64,000 nt of DNA, taken from Betaproteobacteria bacterium. Lineage in GTDB: Bacteria > Pseudomonadota > Gammaproteobacteria > Burkholderiales > SG8-41. Shown piece by piece: positions 171 through 16,651 of the stretch. The translations under genes were made by a program, and so were the position numbers. The stretch spans positions 1 through 64,000 of the forward strand of contig JAQGMI010000020.1 in the NCBI GenBank assembly GCA_028292435.1, given 5' to 3'. Numbering within the stretch: the first letter of the stretch is position 1; the number at the start of each line of letters is the position of its first letter. The notes below the pieces were generated by a model. The model had not been told where the DNA came from. It did no database searches and saw only the letters and a list, made by a program, of their open reading frames with translations.

Positions 171-1022
171 CTACTTCCCCGCCCCTGTCGCCGCCTGCAA
201 CCGCTGCCCCAGCAGCTTCAGCAGACTCAACCCGAACGCCGGATTGCTTTGCACGAGATCGAGAAACTGTTTGCGATTGACGGCCATCAATTCGCAATCA
301 GTTTCGGCGACTGCGCTCGCCTTGCGCGTGCTCTGATCGACAAGCGCCATCTCACCGAAGACGCCGCCGACGCGCACGCGTTCGAGCGTATTGCCATTGG
401 CGGTGATGGCGACGATGCCTTTTCGCAGTAAATACATGCGCACGCCCGGCTCGCCGGCATTGATGATGGTTTGCCCGGCGCTATATCGAATGGGTGGCGG
501 ATCGCCGAGCGCGCCCGCGATTTCATTGAGCGTCGCGTCATCGAACACGCGGCGGTCGCCGGACGCGATGGCCGCCGGCACTGCCTTCTGCATGGAGAGC
601 ATGGCGATGCGCAGCCGCAGGCGGTCGATCATGATGCTCATCAGCATCAGCGCGAAACCCGGCGTTTGTGCGATGGCTTTCTGGAACTGCTTGGCATCGA
701 GCGAAATGACGCTGCAGTCGGTCTTGGCACTTGCGGTCGCTGCGCGTTTCGAATCGGTGATCGTTGCCAACTCGCCGAAGATTTCACCGGGCTTGACGGT
801 GTCGAGCGACTTGCCGGCAACAGTCAGGCCGACCGAACCCTGGACCAGCAAAAACATGCGCTCGTCCGCCGAGAAAAATCCGCGCGACTGATGCTCGGAA
901 AAAAATGCGGTGCCGGCGGCCACCGATTCAGAGACACCCGCGCTTTTGAAAAATTTCATTGCCGCGACCGGATCGTAAACCGGGCTTTCAGACGGCTGGG
1001 TAGTAAAGTCCAGATCTTCCAT
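171..1022 (-). CDS. Protein with two cyclic nucleotide-binding-like domains
   Basis: The protein has 283 residues and two consecutive CNB-type beta-roll domains, at about residues 35-135 and 175-275. Each has the glycine-rich turns and the G-E-(L/M)-A phosphate-binding-cassette signature (FGELATI and FGEMALV). No DNA-binding, kinase or membrane segment follows, so it is probably a small cytoplasmic sensor or scaffold; its effector is unknown. The start has GAGGAAG just upstream. It lies 18 bases downstream of the UGSC selenoprotein fusion on the same strand and is probably co-transcribed with it. CNB-like folds often do not bind cAMP, so ligand binding is not established. Confidence 0.85.
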   Translation of the reverse strand: MEDLDFTTQPSESPVYDPVAAMKFFKSAGVSESVAAGTAFFSEHQSRGFFSADERMFLLVQGSVGLTVAGKSLDTVKPGEIFGELATITDSKRAATASAKTDCSVISLDAKQFQKAIAQTPGFALMLMSIMIDRLRLRIAMLSMQKAVPAAIASGDRRVFDDATLNEIAGALGDPPPIRYSAGQTIINAGEPGVRMYLLRKGIVAITANGNTLERVRVGGVFGEMALVDQSTRKASAVAETDCELMAVNRKQFLDLVQSNPAFGLSLLKLLGQRLQAATGAGK

Positions 1023-1040: not shown

Positions 1041-2756
1041 TCATTCACTCATTGCATCGGCGCGCGTCGCATCGGCTTCGCTCACCAACTGATCGAATAC
1101 GGCGGGGATTTTAATCTCGCGGCCGATCACGCCATAGGTATAAGCCTGCAGCCACAGCGCGTGACTCGAATGGCCGCCGCCGGCAACGACCAGCCCGATG
1201 TTTTCCGCTTTTTCCGCGATCGGCCACGGGTCGAGATGCTGGCTGTTGCGCGCGGCTTCGGTCGCGGCAATATCCATCCACGCAATGCAGCCGGCCTTGC
1301 GCATCTCTTCGAGCGGCACCTTGGAATGCTCGAACAGAAATTCGCGAATCGATTGCTTGGTGAATCCCATCGTCGCGAGATCGGCGGCGACGACTCTCGA
1401 GATCACGACGAAGCCGGGCGTGCCTTCGGTATAGCCGTGCAGGTAATGCACGTCGGGCACGCGCAGATAGCCGGCGACCCGATGCAACCCCTGCATCACG
1501 TCTTCTTCGAGCGTCTCTTTTTTAGCGCCGCGCCGAATGATGTTGGCCACGCCGTTCGCGTAGAAAAGCGAAACGCTATTGCTGCCGCGTTTGAACCCGT
1601 GCCGCTCGCTGCCGTGCGGTTCCCAACCGGCGGGCAGGCCGTCTTCATCTTCGGCAAACACGGCGTTGGTGTATCGCATATGACCGAACACCGCCATGGT
1701 GCCGGTGCCCGGCAAACCGCCGCCAAGATTCTGCTGCATGAGGCGCAATGCGCGGCCGATGCTGGCACCGGCGGGATGCTGCGGATCGGGGCCGACCAAT
1801 CCGAAACCCGAATTGAGGCGGATCTGTTTGGCGATCGGCCCGTTAACGATGATGACCGGAAACGGATTGCCCGATGTCGCCTGCAGCAGTTCGCCGGTGG
1901 CATCGGGATCGAGAAACGCTTCGACCGCGGCAACCAGCACCGGCAGGTATTCGGGACGTCCGCCCGCCATCGCAAGCGCGATCGCGCACGCTTCGATCGT
2001 GACAATCGCGCCGCGCGGCGGAAATTTGCCGAGTACGAGCCCACGCGGCAATTGCGCGCCGCGCAGGATCCAGTTCACGCGCTCGGCGGTCGCCGGCCAC
2101 AGCGGCAGCCCGTCGCCCCATGCGTTGGAAATAAACAGGTCGTTGGCTTTGGCGAGCGCGTCTTCATAGGTTTTACCTTCGACGCTCAACATGCGGCCCG
2201 CGCTGGTGCGCACTTTGGTGCTGGTCCAGTGCATCAACGCGTCGTAAAACTCCTGCTTGCGCGCCGCTAGCGGCGCGAGGTCGGCGTCCGGCAAAAAAGT
2301 CGCGGTCGGAAACGTGACCATGGCGGTATCGGGTGCGAGGCCGATGCCCGACACCGCATTCTTGACGACGCCGACGAATTCATTGCGCGTCAGCGTCACC
2401 GTGGGAATACCCATCGCTTCGAGTCTGGCGGCTGCACGGCCGCACGATGTTGAGCACGCCCCTCAGGCGGCGTTGCCGATGATGACGGCGTCTACCCCGC
2501 TGTCTTTGACCAGCTGCGCGACGTCTTCGTTGCCGATGAACGCGTTGCCCTGCGGAAAGTTTTCTTCGGACACGACTTCGACGCCGGGGAAATCCGTCTC
2601 AAGCATCGTCTTCAGCATCGGCAGCATGCGAAATGCCTGCCACTGCCCGTTCGACAGCATGCCGATGCGCTTGCCGGCGAATGACTCGAGCCGCGGCGCA
2701 TGCGGTGTCGCGGCGTCGAGTGTGCCGGCCGGATCGAAAAATTCAAGCTTGACCAT
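1041..2756 (-). CDS. UGSC-family selenoprotein fused to UGSC-associated partner domain (in-frame TGA = Sec98)
   Basis: Read through the TGA at 2465-2463, this is one 571-residue protein. Residues 1 to about 170 form a UGSC-family domain, with Sec98-Gly-Ala-Cys101 and a nearby Cys105. Residues about 180-571 form a large partner domain with WGDGLP (about 213), GGRPEY (about 265), VIIVNGPI (about 301) and FAEDE motifs. The same partner domain recurs at 11258-12721. Sixteen in-frame codons join the pre-TGA part (start 2756, GGAGGA upstream) to the open frame beyond. Residues on both sides of the TGA resemble the second UGSC protein, which argues against a pseudogene. A hairpin follows the TGA at SECIS distance. 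The family is presumed redox-active through selenol and thiol; its substrate is unknown. The CNB gene follows in the same operon. Confidence 0.85.
2428..2443 (-). promoter_or_regulatory. Candidate bacterial SECIS hairpin for Sec98
   Basis: Immediately inside the coding sequence after the TGA (2465-2463), the minus strand forms a 5-bp GC stem, GCGGC/GCCGC, with loop CGTGCA. The loop starts 24 bases after the TGA and has G at its second position, as SelB-recognised bacterial SECIS loops usually do. The stem is short, so this is weaker than the element at the second locus. Confidence 0.55.
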
Positions 2757-5678: not shown

Positions 5679-6677
5679 ATGAAAGCCACGGCAAAAACAC
5701 GACGGGCGGCCGTTCGCGCATTCGACATTGTTGCGGCAATCGCGCTGCTGCCTTTCGTCACGCCGCCGCTACATGCTCAGGAATATCCGGTCAAAGCGGT
5801 GCGCATCATCGTGCCGTTTGCGCCGGGCGGACCAAACGACCTGGCGGTGAGGCCGGTTGCGCAGAAGCTGTTCGAATTCTTAGGCCAGCCGTTCGTGATT
5901 GACTACCGCGCGGGCGCCAACGGCATCATCGGCTGCGATCTCGTGGCCAAATCGGCGCCCGATGGCTACGCGATGGCCGTGATCTCATCGTCGTTCTCGA
6001 TTAACTCGAGCACCTACGCCAAACTGCCTTTCGATCCGATTCGCGATTTCACGCCCGTTGGATCGCTCGCGACGAGCGACATCATCTTTGTCGTCAATCC
6101 GACGGTGCCGGTGAGGACGGTCAAAGAATTTGTCGCGCTCGCCAAAGCCAATCCCGGCAAACTCACGCACGCGTCGTCGGGCACCGGCGGTTCGCTGCAT
6201 CTTGGCGCGGAACTCCTCAAGCAGACTGCCGGAATAAACCTCGTGCATGTGCCGTACAAGGGCGCGTCATTGGGGCTGACCGATGTGATCGGCGGGCACG
6301 TCGATTCGATGTTTATCTCGGCGCCCGGCGCGGTCGGCCAGATCAAGGCCGGCAAAGTGCGCGTGCTCGCGATTGCCAGCGCAAAGCGGGCGCGTGCATT
6401 GCCCGATGCGCCGACGTTCGCCGAGGCCGGTTATCCCGACGTGCTCGTCGATACGCGATATGGTTTGCTGGCGCCAGCGGGTCTGTCGGCTGCGCCGCTC
6501 GCCAAGCTTGAAAATGCAATCGCGAAAGCGCTGGCGACGCCCGAAGTGCGCGACCAGTATTCGACGCTCAGCCTGGACCCCGCCCCGTTGACGCCGAATG
6601 AATATGCCACGTTTCTGCGGGACGAAATCCAACGCTGGCGCAAAGTCGTCGTGGCGGCGAAACTGCAGCCGCAATAG
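5679..6677 (+). CDS. Tripartite tricarboxylate transporter substrate-binding protein (Bug/TctC family)
   Basis: This 332-residue protein starts with a basic region and a hydrophobic signal peptide ending near LHAQEYPVKAVRI. The Bug family hallmark IIVPFAPGGPNDL follows, then the DYRAGANGIIG, HVPYKGASLGLTDVIGGHV and ALPDAPTFAEAGYP blocks. It would bind a carboxylated small molecule in the periplasm. No TctA or TctB membrane partner lies nearby, which is usual for Bug proteins of Burkholderiales. GAGGGGATCC precedes the ATG. It is followed after 20 bases by a second binding-protein gene. Confidence 0.92.
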   Translation: MKATAKTRRAAVRAFDIVAAIALLPFVTPPLHAQEYPVKAVRIIVPFAPGGPNDLAVRPVAQKLFEFLGQPFVIDYRAGANGIIGCDLVAKSAPDGYAMAVISSSFSINSSTYAKLPFDPIRDFTPVGSLATSDIIFVVNPTVPVRTVKEFVALAKANPGKLTHASSGTGGSLHLGAELLKQTAGINLVHVPYKGASLGLTDVIGGHVDSMFISAPGAVGQIKAGKVRVLAIASAKRARALPDAPTFAEAGYPDVLVDTRYGLLAPAGLSAAPLAKLENAIAKALATPEVRDQYSTLSLDPAPLTPNEYATFLRDEIQRWRKVVVAAKLQPQ

Positions 6678-8875: not shown

Positions 8876-9871
8876 TTACTCCGGCTTGATGCCGCGCGCC
8901 TTGATGACTTTCGTCCACTTCTCAAGTTCGCTTTTCAGGAATACGCCCAACTCGGCCGGCGTCATGTCGATTGGAATTGCGCCGAGTGTCGTCATGAGTT
9001 GCTTCACCGCCGGCGCCTGCTTGATCTGCGTGACTGCAGCGTGCAGCTTGTTGATGACCGCGGGCGGCGTTTTGGCGGGCGCGACGAGCGCGTAAAAGAG
9101 CAGCCCTTCGTAACCGGGCAGACCGCTTTCGGCGATCGTCGGAATTTCCGGCAGGTTCGGCACGCGCTGCGCGGTCGCCACCGCCATTGGCCTGAGCTTC
9201 CCGGCGGCGATGTGTGGCAATGAGACGACAGTGCTCGCAAACCCGAACGGCGCATGACCGCCGAGCAGCGCGACAAGCGCGGGCGCATCGCCGGGGTAAG
9301 TGACGACGAGGATGTCGATGCCGGCGAGCAGCTTGAAGAGTTCCATGTTGAGGTGCGAGCTCGTGCCGATGCTCGACGCTGCCGCGGTCAGCGAGCCCGG
9401 CTTCGATTTCGCGAGCTTGATGAGTTCAGCCACGGACTTGGCGGGAAATGACGGATGCGCGACGAGCACGCCCGGCACATGCGCCATCATGGCGACCGGC
9501 GCGAAGTCCGCAATCGGATCGTACGGCAGCTTGCCGAACATCGGCAGGCCGGTCGTCAACACGCCGCCATACGTAAAAAATAAAGTGTAGCCGTCAGGCG
9601 GCGCTTTCGCGGCTGCCGCGGCGGCGACCCGTCCACTCGCGCCGCCGCGATTGTCGGCGACGACCGGCTGGTCCCACATTTCGGTGAATCCATCCTTGAC
9701 GATGCGACCGAGCAGATCGGTGCCGCCGCCGGGCGGCGACGGGATCAACAGGCGGATAGGCTTGTCCGGGTAGGTGTCCGCGCCGGCCGGCACTGCAAAA
9801 ACAGAAACGGCGAGTGCTGCGAAAACCGCAGCGACCCGCCGGATCTCTTGCGTTTGTTGCTTAACAGCCAA
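8876..9871 (-). CDS. Bug/TctC-family periplasmic substrate-binding protein
   Basis: The mature part begins ADTYPDKPIRLLIPSPPGGG, the Bug hallmark. NRGGASGRVA, a long lobe with VVTYPGDAPALVALLGGHA, and LPEIPTIAESGLPGYEG follow. A longer open frame reaches back into the aldolase gene. The TTG at 9871 is chosen as start because it lies three bases past the aldolase stop and yields a normal signal peptide (VAAVFAALAVSVFAVPAGA) and 331 residues. It would be co-transcribed with the aldolase and may bind a carboxylate handled by that enzyme. Confidence 0.88.
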   Translation of the reverse strand: MAVKQQTQEIRRVAAVFAALAVSVFAVPAGADTYPDKPIRLLIPSPPGGGTDLLGRIVKDGFTEMWDQPVVADNRGGASGRVAAAAAAKAPPDGYTLFFTYGGVLTTGLPMFGKLPYDPIADFAPVAMMAHVPGVLVAHPSFPAKSVAELIKLAKSKPGSLTAAASSIGTSSHLNMELFKLLAGIDILVVTYPGDAPALVALLGGHAPFGFASTVVSLPHIAAGKLRPMAVATAQRVPNLPEIPTIAESGLPGYEGLLFYALVAPAKTPPAVINKLHAAVTQIKQAPAVKQLMTTLGAIPIDMTPAELGVFLKSELEKWTKVIKARGIKPE

Positions 9872-9873
9872 TG

Positions 9874-10662
9874 CTAGTGCGCGTAGCTCGGATCGATCTG
9901 GTCCATCCAGCGCAGCACCGCGGCCCACATGATGGCCGGACCGTCGTTGGTATCTTTCTCTTTTTTCTGCACGATCTGCGTGGTCTGGTTGCTGGTTTTC
10001 TTGACCACGTCCATCGGCGGGAAGATCAGCTTGGCGCCGCCGGATTGGGCCATCACCTGCGTCTCGCACGACATTTCGAGCCGCCGCATCAGGTGGAACG
10101 CGTGTCCCATGGTCGAGCCGCAGGTCAAGAGACCATGGTTGCGCAGGATCGCGACGTTCTTGTCGCCGAGCGCCTTGGCGATGTGCTCGCTTTCCTCAGC
10201 TTCATTGGTGACGCCCTCGCAGTCGTAATAGGCGATCTTGTCGTGAAGGTGCATGGCGCCGAGATTGATTGGCAGCAAGCCTTGTTCCTGGCACGCGACG
10301 GCGACGCCGGCTTTCGAATGCGTGTGGATGACCGCGTGCGCATCTTTGCGCGCCATGTGGATCGAGCGATGGACGACGAAGCCTGCCATCAGCATCGGAT
10401 ACTGCGACGGTATGAGCTTGTTGCCGTCGAGATCGACCTTCAGCAGGTTCGACGCGGTAATTTCGTTGTACAGGAGGCCGAACGGATTAATCAGAAAATG
10501 CGATTCGGTGCCGGGCACACGCATCGAGATGTGGTTGTAGATCAGGCTGTGGTGCCAGCCCATCGCCGATACTGCACGATATGCGGCGGCGAGATCAACG
10601 CGGGCTGCCCATTCTTCGGCCGAACATTCGATTTTGGGTGCGACTTTAAGCGGTGCGTTCAT
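9874..10662 (-). CDS. Class II aldolase/adducin family protein
   Basis: This 262-residue protein has the class II aldolase fold. HTHSKAGVAVA supplies the zinc-ligand His pair, NHGLLTCG the later His, and SLIYNHISMRVPG the N-terminal loop. Family members cleave or epimerise sugar phosphates or act on related hydroxy acids using a divalent metal. The short C-terminal tail rich in Lys and Asp is typical of the sugar-aldolase-like group found next to Bug proteins. The exact substrate is not readable. It is the first gene of a pair with the downstream Bug gene. Confidence 0.87.
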   Translation of the reverse strand: MNAPLKVAPKIECSAEEWAARVDLAAAYRAVSAMGWHHSLIYNHISMRVPGTESHFLINPFGLLYNEITASNLLKVDLDGNKLIPSQYPMLMAGFVVHRSIHMARKDAHAVIHTHSKAGVAVACQEQGLLPINLGAMHLHDKIAYYDCEGVTNEAEESEHIAKALGDKNVAILRNHGLLTCGSTMGHAFHLMRRLEMSCETQVMAQSGGAKLIFPPMDVVKKTSNQTTQIVQKKEKDTNDGPAIMWAAVLRWMDQIDPSYAH

Positions 10663-10782: not shown

Positions 10783-11193
10783 TCAGCGGCGACACGCGTA
10801 GGCGAGCAGGCGGGCGTTCACCGTTTCGGCCTCAACCCGCGCGGACGGCGAACGCAGATTGCTTTCCGTGACCTGATTGCCCTTTGCCCTGGCTTCAGCG
10901 AAAGAGACCGCGGACAGCAACCGCACACGCTCGTCCTTGCAGTCGAACTCATAGTTCAGCTTGATCGACAGGTATTTTTTGCCGGCTTCGGCGGTTTGCG
11001 GCGCTTTGTAGTCGTACATCGCCCACATCGTGGCCATCGCGCCCTGCTTTTTAATCGTAGCGGGGTCGGCGTAGGACGTGAACTTGTCGTTCACGCCAAT
11101 TTCAATCCATACGTCGGCCGCCGCGCCAAAACTCAAGCCGGCCAAAACAATAATTGCCGCTGTCTTTCGAGTGCGTGATGACGCTGCAGTCAT
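10783..11193 (-). CDS. Surface-adhesin protein E-like secreted protein
   Basis: This 136-residue protein has an N-terminal signal peptide (TAAIIVLAGLSFGAAA). A compact beta domain follows, starting WIEIGVNDKFTSYADPATI and containing YDYKAPQTAEAGKKYLSIKL and paired cysteines near 84 and 134 (EFDCKDE, AYACRR). This pattern recurs in short periplasmic proteins grouped with the protein E domain. It is probably periplasmic or surface-attached; function is unknown in environmental bacteria. It is divergent from the thioredoxin-like/UGSC operon with a 64-base spacer. Confidence 0.7.
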   Translation of the reverse strand: MTAASSRTRKTAAIIVLAGLSFGAAADVWIEIGVNDKFTSYADPATIKKQGAMATMWAMYDYKAPQTAEAGKKYLSIKLNYEFDCKDERVRLLSAVSFAEARAKGNQVTESNLRSPSARVEAETVNARLLAYACRR

Positions 11194-11257
11194 CCGCGCA
11201 TTTTATGCCAAGGCTGCCGGCTGGTGGCCGCCGCCGGCGCCGTCAAACAACGCTAGA

Positions 11258-12721
11258 ATGAGAATCTCCGAACACAACACTCGAAAGCTTGCGCGCATGG
11301 AACTCGTGGCGGTCGTCAAACGCGAATGCGAAACCTGCCGGCTGGTCGCGCCGGTGCTCGCGCAAATCCGTGAGTCCGCGCCGCTCGAACTTTTCAGCCA
11401 GGACGACCCCGCTTTCCCCGAGCTGCTCGGCGGCGCCAAAGACGATACCGCGCTCGACCGTTCGTGGCGGCTCAACATCGAAACCGTACCGACGCTAATC
11501 CGCTTCGAAGCGGGACGCGAAGTGTCGCGCATCGCCGGCTGGGACCGCGCCGAATGGGAACGCGTCGCGCAACTGTCCGCGCTCGGCGCCGGGCTGCCCG
11601 CATTCCAGCCCGGTTGCGGTTCGCGCACGCAAGACCCCGGCATGCCGGAGCGGCTCGCACTCGCACACGGTGATTTGAAATTGCGCTCGCGCGCGATCGA
11701 CGTCGCCGATCCCGAAGACGCCATCGAAATCGCGTACGACCGCGGCTGGGCCGACGGCCTGCCCGTCGTGCCGCCGACGCCGCTGCGCGTTGCGATGATG
11801 TTGTCAGGCAGCACGCGAAAACCCGACGAAGTTATCGGCCTGATTCCACCGAACCTCGTCGAATGCACCGTAGAAAAAGCCGCCGTCAACGCAGTGATGG
11901 CGGGTTGCCGTCCCGAATATTTTCCGGTCGTGCTGGCAGTGATCGAGGCCGCGCTCGAACCGCAATTCTCGATGCATGGTTTGCTCGCGACGCTGTGGTT
12001 CTCGGGACCGGTGATCATCGTCAACGGACCGATCACCAAACGCATCGGCATGAACAGCGGCGGCAACGCGCTCGGCCAGGGCAATCGCGCGAACGCGACG
12101 ATCGGCCGCGCGCTGCAACTCGTGATTCGCAACGTCGGCGGCGGCATTCCCGGTGAAATCGATCGCGCGGTGCTCGGCAATCCGGGCAAGTACACGTTCT
12201 GCTTCGCCGAAGACGAAACCGATCCGACGTGGACGCCGCTTAACGTCGCGCGCGGCTTCAAGCCGGGCACTTCCACCGTCACCCTATTTCATGGCGACGG
12301 CGTGCAGGGCATTACCGCCGGCAAATCGCGCACGCCCGAGGGCCTCGCCAAATCGCTCGCGCTCGGCCTCTCGGTGGTTTGTCACCCGAAGCTGTGCGAA
12401 TACGCGAACGCGATCCTCGTCGTGTCGCCCGATCATTACGCGATATTCAATAACGGCGGCTGGCGGCGTCCGGAAATCGAAGCGGGCCTGCGCGCGGCAC
12501 TGCGGCGTCCCGGCAAGGACTTGATCACGGGTGCGCACGGCATCGAAGAAGGCATCGATCCGTCGCGCGCCGATGAGATGATCGACAAATTTAATGAAGG
12601 CGGCCTTTTGGTGGTGCGCGCCGGCGGACGCGGCGGCTTGATGTCGGCCGTCATCGGCGGCTGGCCGGCGCAGAGAAAGAAAACCGAAGTGCAAACCGTA
12701 ACGCGGGAGATTGCCCTATGA
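11258..12721 (+). CDS. Thioredoxin-like domain fused to UGSC-associated partner domain
   Basis: From the ATG at 11258 the protein has 487 residues. Residues 15-110 form a thioredoxin-like domain with Cys24-Glu-Thr-Cys27 and a cis-Pro loop (TVPT, about 77). Residues about 150-480 are the same large domain found in the selenoprotein fusion at 1041-2756, sharing WADGLP (about 164), AGCRPEYFPVV, VIIVNGPITK, IGRALQL, GGGIPG and FAEDE. The longer upstream frame is rejected because it reads low-complexity residues. An inner ATG at 11297 is possible but leaves the Trx domain intact. Its stop overlaps the start of the UGSC selenoprotein gene, so the two are translationally coupled. The thioredoxin part could reduce the selenenyl intermediate of its partner; that is inference. 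Confidence 0.8.
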   Translation: MRISEHNTRKLARMELVAVVKRECETCRLVAPVLAQIRESAPLELFSQDDPAFPELLGGAKDDTALDRSWRLNIETVPTLIRFEAGREVSRIAGWDRAEWERVAQLSALGAGLPAFQPGCGSRTQDPGMPERLALAHGDLKLRSRAIDVADPEDAIEIAYDRGWADGLPVVPPTPLRVAMMLSGSTRKPDEVIGLIPPNLVECTVEKAAVNAVMAGCRPEYFPVVLAVIEAALEPQFSMHGLLATLWFSGPVIIVNGPITKRIGMNSGGNALGQGNRANATIGRALQLVIRNVGGGIPGEIDRAVLGNPGKYTFCFAEDETDPTWTPLNVARGFKPGTSTVTLFHGDGVQGITAGKSRTPEGLAKSLALGLSVVCHPKLCEYANAILVVSPDHYAIFNNGGWRRPEIEAGLRAALRRPGKDLITGAHGIEEGIDPSRADEMIDKFNEGGLLVVRAGGRGGLMSAVIGGWPAQRKKTEVQTVTREIAL

Positions 12722-15322: not shown

Positions 15323-16306
15323 TCACTCCGCTTTAATGCCGCCTGCTTTGGCCACCGCAGTCCACGTGACGATCTCGTCGGCCACCAGTTTGCCGAACGC
15401 AGCCGGTGTGCTGCCGATGGGTTCGGCGAACTGGGTCGCAAGACGTTCGCGCACGTCGGGCTGTGCCAGAATCTTCCGGATTTCGGCCGACAACTTGTCG
15501 ATCACCGGACGAGGCGCTCCGGCAGGCGCGAGCATTCCGTACCACGAAGTCATCGTCACGCCAGGCAGGCCGGCTTCTGCCATCGTCGGGACGTCGGGCT
15601 GCGCGACGGCCCGTTTCGGCGCGATTACTGCGAGCGCACGCAGACGGCCGACGTTCACTTGAGGCAGCGCAATCGTCATCGTTGGAAACAGCAGCGAGAT
15701 ATGGCCGCCGATCAGGTCGGTCAGCGCTGGTCCGCCGCCTTTATACGGCACGTGGACGATGTCGATCCTGGCCGCCAGCTTGAACTGTTCGCCGGCCATG
15801 TGAAATGGTGAGCCCACACCGCCGGAGCCGAACGTCAGCGTTCCAGGCCTGGCTTTTCCCAGGGCGATGAGCTCGGCAACCGACTTGGCGGGCAATGCCG
15901 CCGGCACGATCAACCAGTTTGAAACCCGCATCGCCTCAGTCACGGGGGAAAAATCTTTGACGGCGTCGAAAGGCAATTTCGCATAGAGCGCCGGGGTGAC
16001 GCTGAAGCCCGTGTCCACCATCAGCAAGGTGTAGCCGTCGGCAATCGCCTTGGCGACGACATCGGAGCCGATGATCGAGCCTGCGCCCGGCCGGTTGTCG
16101 ACCACCACGGTCTGGCCTAATGCATCGGTCAGCTTGGAGCCAAGAATGCGAGCCGCGTAATCGGTGGTGCCGCCGGGCGCGTACGGCACGACGAGGCGAA
16201 TCGGCCGGTTCGGATATTCGGTTTTGACGGATTGCGCGTGCGCCGGCGAGTGACACGAAAAAATCGCCGCGGCGGCCAGCGCGACTTTCGATTTCCCATT
16301 CATCAT
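15323..16306 (-). CDS. Bug/TctC-family periplasmic substrate-binding protein
   Basis: The ATG at 16306 (an ATGATG pair, GGAG 12 bases upstream) gives 327 residues with a signal peptide (VALAAAAIFSCHSPAHA). The mature hallmark YPNRPIRLVVPYAPGGTTDY follows, then DNRPGAGSIIGSDVVA, HVPYKGGGPALTDLIGGHI and QPDVPTMAEAGLPGV. The longer upstream frame lacks a signal peptide. No TctAB genes are nearby. It is convergent with the amidohydrolase and may supply its substrate. It is the third Bug gene in the window. Confidence 0.92.
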   Translation of the reverse strand: MMNGKSKVALAAAAIFSCHSPAHAQSVKTEYPNRPIRLVVPYAPGGTTDYAARILGSKLTDALGQTVVVDNRPGAGSIIGSDVVAKAIADGYTLLMVDTGFSVTPALYAKLPFDAVKDFSPVTEAMRVSNWLIVPAALPAKSVAELIALGKARPGTLTFGSGGVGSPFHMAGEQFKLAARIDIVHVPYKGGGPALTDLIGGHISLLFPTMTIALPQVNVGRLRALAVIAPKRAVAQPDVPTMAEAGLPGVTMTSWYGMLAPAGAPRPVIDKLSAEIRKILAQPDVRERLATQFAEPIGSTPAAFGKLVADEIVTWTAVAKAGGIKAE

Positions 16307-16651
16307 ATGTTGTGTGCTCCGGGCAGAAAGTACGCAAATAGCATCGCTGAGACTAGGACGCTTCAAGGGTTCAAGAAACAGAACGCAGACCGCTAGCAAG
16401 CCGCGTTCCAGCCGCGTCCGCCGTGTGGGCACAACGGCGCGGCATGGGCCGGACGCACGCGTCGATTGTAATCCGTTGTCTCGACCGTTTCGAAATGCAC
16501 CGATAGAATGATCCGGAGTCCCGTTTCGGTGCGCCCACACGGGTGGACGTCGCGGGAACGCCGACGATATTGCGCTTCACTGCCGGATAGACATATACGA
16601 GTGCGCCGGCACGGCGCCATCCTTCATCGCACCACTGCAGAAAGTGAAAAC
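16307..16651. other. 345-bp divergent intergenic region
   Basis: This spacer separates the Bug gene (minus) and the EthD-like gene (plus). No gene, tRNA or convincing operator is seen. Short frames on both strands have no ribosome binding site or recognisable sequence. Divergent promoters presumably lie here. Confidence 0.5.

Follow-up and report, generated by a model that had tools for sequence, protein, structure and literature searches.

A predicted UGSC selenoprotein joined to its partner subunit in one chain, and the many UGSC-partner pairs of a betaproteobacterial family

The 64,000-nucleotide stretch of betaproteobacterial DNA analyzed here (the window) contains a 571-codon reading frame in which an in-frame TGA is almost certainly read as selenocysteine (Sec), joining a UGSC domain to a partner domain in one chain (Table 1). 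Sec coding, the partnership of the two domains, their fusion, the abundance of the family and its genomic neighbors are established by sequence comparison. The pair is best read as a two-component selenoenzyme, distantly related to the reductase subunits PrdB and GrdB, that would reduce imported organic acids, a reading to which we give a probability of roughly 55%. Below, G000 denotes the source genome, other G-numbers denote other genomes, L-numbers UGSC/partner loci and C-numbers contigs of G000.

Table 1. Features of the window discussed in the text.
Feature	Position	Strand	Remarks
Fusion selenoprotein gene, 571 codons + stop	1041..2756	-	UGA codon 98 = Sec (predicted); UGA codon 572 = stop
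UGA codon for Sec98 (predicted)	2463..2465	-	TGA in 29/29 fetched relative loci
UGSC domain (PF24696), spanning the UGA	2307..2738	-	Pfam profile match, E 3.4e-23
Partner domain, no Pfam family, model A3	1071..2171	-	Profile match
SECIS-like hairpin	2428..2443	-	Stem GCGGC/GCCGC, loop CGUGCA, 24 nt UGA to loop
Cyclic-nucleotide-binding-domain protein	171..1022	-	18 nt downstream of the fusion gene
Separate partner gene, second system	11078..12721	+	Partner match 11711-12499
Second UGSC selenoprotein gene, UGSCTSCS, 174 aa	12739..13263	+	17 nt after the end of the partner ORF

Gene-calling rules divide the frame into two open reading frames on the minus strand, of 97 amino acids (2463-2756) and 457 amino acids (1041-2414), as the original prediction had described. 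The TGA at codon 98 is the sole break in the frame; it opens the motif U98-G-A-C-S-T-S-C (UGACSTSC), whose second Cys is C101, and exactly 16 sense codons separate it from the ATG at 2414. The motif and the joining codons had both been correctly predicted, and the UGSC profile PF24696 crosses the TGA (residues 7-150; 83.1 bits, cut-off 25), so that the proposal of a single-chain selenoprotein fusing a UGSC domain to a partner of about 390 residues is supported by the 571-residue frame. The NF041046 equivalog is not reached by the fusion (54.8 bits against a cut-off of 125) and is passed by the paralog L017 (148.4 bits). Since a gene caller that ends every frame at UGA would truncate such genes, the UGSC set is easily lost in annotation.

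The original prediction had turned on the presence of Sec machinery, and selA, selB, selC and selD all score over cut-off in G000 (5.17 Mb in 178 contigs, 90.6% complete, 8.1% contamination), the tRNA-Sec (selC) at 77.2 bits. Contig C82 carries selA, selB, a thioredoxin-reductase-like (TrxR-like) gene, selC and another UGSC fusion, all in one direction, and selD, which itself has one TGA, lies apart from this cluster. A second SelB-like match (G000:C53:9673-10827; 191 bits) is below cut-off and has an internal TAA. All 18 UGSC matches in G000 have exactly one in-frame TGA. Because TGA is also the stop codon of 11 of the 18 genes, the window fusion included, the genetic code as a whole is unchanged. 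The TGA is likewise kept in every one of the 29 relative loci, which are the best-scoring matches of the partner search over the nearest genomes (27, plus L075 and L078). Among nine more distant homologs without Sec, the Cys anticipated at the site is present in eight (L092, L093, L117, L118, L119, L123, L124 and L129), L129 being also a fusion; in L093 the Cys-type UGSC gene is broken, with its upstream part in another frame and a TGA farther along, and the adjoining partner gene is intact. The expectation failed once, in a Sporomusa termitida fusion (L120, 5323-7047) that has Met at the site (MGTS), lacks the second Cys and shares only 22% identity with the window protein. We take it as a family member that has probably lost its redox site and, given Cys in the eight other homologs, do not hold this single case to overturn the Sec reading. 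The Sporomusa gene adjoins an FAD-dependent oxidoreductase gene, with aconitase X nearby. In one paralog in G000 (L026; G000:C84:72554-73054) the motif is UGSS, in which Sec is kept and the second Cys is replaced by Ser.

Bacterial SECIS elements place their loop 16-37 nt from the UGA, with a G early in the loop. The hairpin of the window, with its loop of the form CGUGC[AU], agrees with this rule in both distance and loop G, and its stem has only 5 bp. Stem and loop are kept in 32 sequences, some of them identical, and the only stem change among these is a C to U at one position in four sequences, which retains a G-U pair. Over 231 four-fold columns in 29 orthologs, synonymous entropy reaches its minimum for a four-column run at residues 106-109 (0.245), compared with 0.315 for the next run (residues 247-250) and a mean of 1.03 for all columns; Arg107 is encoded by CGT in all 29, though CGT makes up only 125 of the 698 CGN codons there. 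The minimum free energy of the 54 nt after the UGA gave no signal against synonymous shuffles (21 genes, mean z -0.04; controls -0.47), and four narrow folding windows were picked after this null result. In the 18 paralogs, a 30-nt window (+12 to +42 after the UGA) has a mean z of -1.31, with 10 of 18 below -1, as against -0.02 and 18% below -1 in 149 control windows of the same length from the same genes; the mean z is -1.59 for the 27-nt window from +12 to +39 (14 of 18 below -1), -1.18 for +9 to +36 and -0.78 for +15 to +42. In the 30-nt test the window gene's own hairpin is not unusually stable against shuffles (z +1.36), and its closest paralog, L034, has a z of +1.67. A SECIS hairpin after the UGA, as originally predicted, is thus supported by position and conservation but not by the stability of the window gene's own stem.

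The TGA might instead be a true stop that leaves a dead or truncated UGSC fragment of 97 residues ahead of a separate 457-residue partner gene starting at the ATG at 2414, in accordance with the two genes that a gene caller would give and with the presence of that ATG. Such a reading is scarcely credible, because the TGA of all 29 relative loci is flanked on both sides by the same residues, the UGSC profile runs across it and C101 follows it, Cys takes its place in eight homologs including a fusion, the genome has the full Sec machinery and synonymous codon choice is constrained downstream.

The roughly 390 residues that follow the UGSC domain match no Pfam family and were followed by means of a profile built from nine fusions. 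Of the 19 partner copies in G000, six belong to fusions, 12 adjoin unfused UGSC genes and one, on C51, is an orphan; the 18 UGSC loci of the genome comprise six fused and 12 unfused genes. A same-strand partner gene adjoins 11 of the 12 unfused UGSC genes, one of which has two partners, and the exception lies near the end of contig C101, on which there is no partner match. The orphan (G000:C51:51469-52491) is without a UGSC gene on its strand and lies about 2.5 kb from a normal pair. UGSC distances and partner distances are correlated in a mirror-tree analysis (r 0.82 for 17 pairs and r 0.76 for the 11 unfused pairs), a correlation reached in 0 of 5000 permutations for each of the two sets. 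In a tree of 17 concatenated pairs, five fusions group together (support 98), and the sixth, L023, is placed beside an unfused pair (support 100); monophyly of all fusions is rejected (AU p 0.0001). Adjacency, matching distances and the tree together indicate that the partner is a dedicated subunit of UGSC proteins, and that fusion, or splitting, occurred more than once.

An AGC-type Cys is present in 23 of 37 partners and replaced by Gly in the other 14, which make up the clade of the window, and no Cys or Ser is invariant among the 37. The structure model of the partner (pLDDT 86.6) gave no clear fold match when searched alone; the best Foldseek rows were class I fumarate hydratases, as a weak match (E 0.016; Z 4.4, rmsd 6.2, 189 residues aligned). 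A search with the whole chain mostly matched the UGSC part, to CheY-like and other Rossmann-type folds (best match Z 11.1, rmsd 2.7, 117 aligned). The UGSC fold was guessed to be thioredoxin-like in 2008 (PMC2398784); thioredoxin-fold proteins are absent among the fold matches listed, an absence that does not count against this guess. Sequence searches of the PDB returned nothing useful, and the viral contigs scanned contain no relative of the partner. Weak Pfam matches of one partner (RepB_primase_C) and of single fusions (CCG and Asparaginase_C) were set aside.

The partner occurs in 81 of the 149 genomes nearest to G000, namely in every one of the 74 members of the family of G000 (G000-G073) and in seven others, and in only five of 398 genomes drawn from the phylum, G000 included. 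UGSC proteins are present in all 60 genomes drawn from the family and in six of 369 drawn from the class, G000 again included. The 60 family genomes contain at least 897 UGSC matches (median 11.5), with ten or more in 33 of the 60 genomes, and every one among the matches listed has exactly one TGA. The highest count is at least 48, from 70 candidates, in G004 (98% complete, 2% contamination). For comparison, UGSC stands at 26 and 33 in a 2016 table, figures that we take to be organisms and genes (PMC5029168); the largest selenoproteomes on record comprise 57 and 63 genes over all families (PMC13188914). In the draw from the class, G848 has at least nine UGSC frames (best nine of 24 candidates), all with one TGA and 546-649 codons long, of which seven have the variant motif US[STL]C and only four the DGLP-type motif of the partner. 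Ten long UGSC-type frames of G848 and G660 (L127, L128 and L131-L138) mostly carry US[STL]C, and the six of them without a DGLP-type motif may be fused to other or diverged partners. One locus, L037, comes from a metagenome-assembled genome labeled Bordetella parapertussis; its UGSC fusion resembles those of environmental betaproteobacterial metagenome-assembled genomes, and the label looks wrong.

The second UGSC protein that had been noticed in the window proved to be real, and it has its own adjoining partner gene (Table 1). The open reading frame of that partner has about 210 extra N-terminal residues, and no Pfam match was found over its whole length. The cyclic-nucleotide-binding gene may be co-transcribed with the fusion gene, upstream of which lies a divergent glyoxalase-type gene; neither a transporter nor a TrxR gene stands beside the fusion of the window. 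Three TctC solute-binding genes are present in the window (5679-6677, 8876-10069 and 15323-16540), and G000 has a very large set of them. A scan of the window with Rfam found nothing but a tRNA.

A same-strand TctC gene lies directly beside eight of the 18 UGSC units of G000, or nine if an overlapping open reading frame at L107 is counted, as compared with two of the 59 non-TctC genes of the window, a control confined to one 64-kb stretch. If chance adjacency is set at 10%, the probability of finding at least eight in 18 is 2e-4 and that of at least nine is 2e-5; at 20%, the values are 0.016 and 0.004. All 150 scored TctC candidates of G000, the best 150 of 488, matched the family; since TctC genes are so common and the control is small, their adjacency is weak evidence. 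Outside G000, a TrxR-like gene and two partners lie together in G284, selB adjoins a partner and a UGSC gene in G450, DctA is a neighbor in G288 and acyl-CoA dehydrogenases are neighbors in G417. Partner matches occur in 24 plasmid records, of which eight were examined; two of these eight carry no gene annotation there. The Roseovarius locus has an adjacent trxB as well as a TRAP transporter and a CoA-transferase, that of Variovorax has TctC and a trxB two genes away, that of Halalkalicoccus a TAXI TRAP transporter and a CoA transferase, and that of Acidovorax a TctC gene on the opposite strand, and MFS genes are neighbors in Natrinema and Sporomusa. The UGSC proteins of Roseovarius and Variovorax are Cys forms, and Paracoccus versutus DSM 17099 (plasmid pBEN) and Acidovorax sp. 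T1 are cultured organisms that have an unfused Sec-type UGSC gene together with a partner.

The function of the pair is approached through a distant likeness to the Sec subunits of D-proline reductase (PrdB) and glycine reductase (GrdB). Among the 18 paralogs, the best E-value is 4.9e-7 with the PrdB model and 3.5e-6 with the GrdH model, each of which detects two of 18 at E 0.001, and seven of nine fusions match the PrdB/GrdB models at E 0.1. Residues 78-122 of the fusion align to residues 129-172 of PrdB, which places the UxxC motif in a homologous segment. The similarity is confined to about 45-50 residues round the Sec and stays far below the family cut-offs (18.8 against 300 bits for PrdB). 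Gly_reductase (PF09338) matches two of nine whole fusions weakly (best E 0.018) and none of six partner regions scanned alone (E 5), and no PrdA or GrdE model is among the matches listed for the nine fusions. A search of G000 for GRDA gave no match, but as no control matched either, this negative carries no weight. Because the PrdB/GrdB cut-offs are not reached and no PrdA/GrdE match was seen for the partner region, membership in these families is not claimed. Enzymes of the PrdB/GrdB type cleave a C-N bond by means of a Sec subunit and a partner subunit, and a GrdB/GrdE-like pair of Cloacibacillus that comes with a transporter of its own is credited with cleaving the C-F bond of fluoroacetate (PMC10838667). 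On the strength of this likeness and this precedent, the UGSC/partner pair is read as a reductase of small organic acids.

The favored scheme begins with SelB, which, guided by the hairpin after codon 98, would insert Sec, the UGA at codon 572 then terminating the chain. The N-terminal UGSC domain is a distant relative of the Sec segment of PrdB and GrdB, and the C-terminal domain is a dedicated partner subunit, fused here and encoded by a neighboring gene elsewhere. The two would act together in reducing a small organic acid that a binding-protein transporter has imported: in this enzyme the partner would hold the substrate, Sec98 would attack it, C101 would close a selenenylsulfide with Sec98 and a TrxR-like flavoprotein would restore this bond. 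The electron route, the substrate class and the nucleophilic attack are what we infer in this scheme.

Some of the same evidence could be arranged differently. The UxxC motif, the TrxR-like genes nearby and the thiol-redox nature of many known prokaryotic selenoproteins (PMC2398784; PMC13188914) would suit a Sec domain acting as a thiol-redox module of stress defense, a peroxidase or disulfide reductase, with the partner as its target or scaffold and with no organic-acid substrate. This is an unlikely but serious alternative: the many diverged cognate pairs per genome fit diversification of substrates better than defense, and the neighbors include genes for organic-acid transport, CoA-transferase and acyl-CoA dehydrogenase. 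It is much harder to regard the partner as a fumarase-like lyase or hydratase for dicarboxylic acids, with a Sec domain that regulates it or reduces its product. The fumarate hydratases at the top of the Foldseek rows and the DctA, TRAP and TctC neighbors point that way, but the structural match is the weak one given above, and the 37 partners have no invariant Cys for an iron-sulfur cluster, which makes this reading very improbable.

The reductase reading can be extended to a more tentative proposal, namely that one betaproteobacterial family has turned one selenoprotein fold into many substrate-specific reductases for imported organic acids, the UGSC genes of one genome reaching at least 48; each UGSC protein would then probably be matched by a partner that co-evolves with it and is often part of the same chain, and TctC would be a frequent companion. 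A dedicated partner, dozens of copies in one family and the company of transporter and TrxR genes lead to a testable idea of UGSC function. If true, the proposal would imply a selenium-dependent route of modular design by which bonds of imported organic acids are broken, a kind of chemistry that to our knowledge is not known in the betaproteobacterial group. In a 2008 survey of ocean and fresh water, UGSC ranked with the most abundant selenoprotein families (PMC2398784), and its function is still described as largely uncharacterized in a 2026 review (PMC13188914).

The fusion itself, which had appeared to be undescribed, was already in print: Zhang and Gladyshev reported a fusion of UGSC with a domain called "Unknown_1" in 2008, adding that fused domains contain at least one conserved Cys "as a rule" (PMC2398784). 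The two cases are alike in that a UGSC Sec domain is fused to a conserved uncharacterized domain, and Unknown_1 is likely, although unproven, to be the partner found here. The available portions of the 2008 paper (PMC2398784) do not mention the separate adjoining partner genes, the co-evolution or the copy numbers per genome that are noted here. Among titles and abstract openings, a body of text that excludes most subscription journals and all preprints, none concerned a partner neighboring UGSC, betaproteobacterial copy numbers or linkage to TctC. The new part therefore seems to be the context, that is, the separate partners, their co-evolution, the many copies per genome and the company of TctC and TrxR genes.

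With the UGSC family as defined by PF24696 and NF041046, the window gene shares the domain, the UxxC motif and Sec or Cys at the site, and it differs in its fusion to a partner and in its score below the NF041046 cut-off. With PrdB (and its PrdA) and with GrdB of glycine, betaine and sarcosine reductase (and its GrdE), it shares a UxxC Sec in a related segment; these systems also consist of a Sec protein and a partner subunit and occur in some genomes as several substrate-specific copies. They differ in that no PrdA/GrdE match was found for the partner region and in that the similarity of the Sec domains is short and below threshold. The closest parallel in organization is FarB/FarE of Cloacibacillus porcorum MFA1, likewise a substrate-specific Sec protein with a partner and a transporter, a further likeness being that FarE is without the Cys needed for a pyruvoyl group; by contrast, FarB/FarE is described as the GrdB/GrdE pair of an anaerobe and is predicted to feed GrdA/GrdC (PMC10838667).
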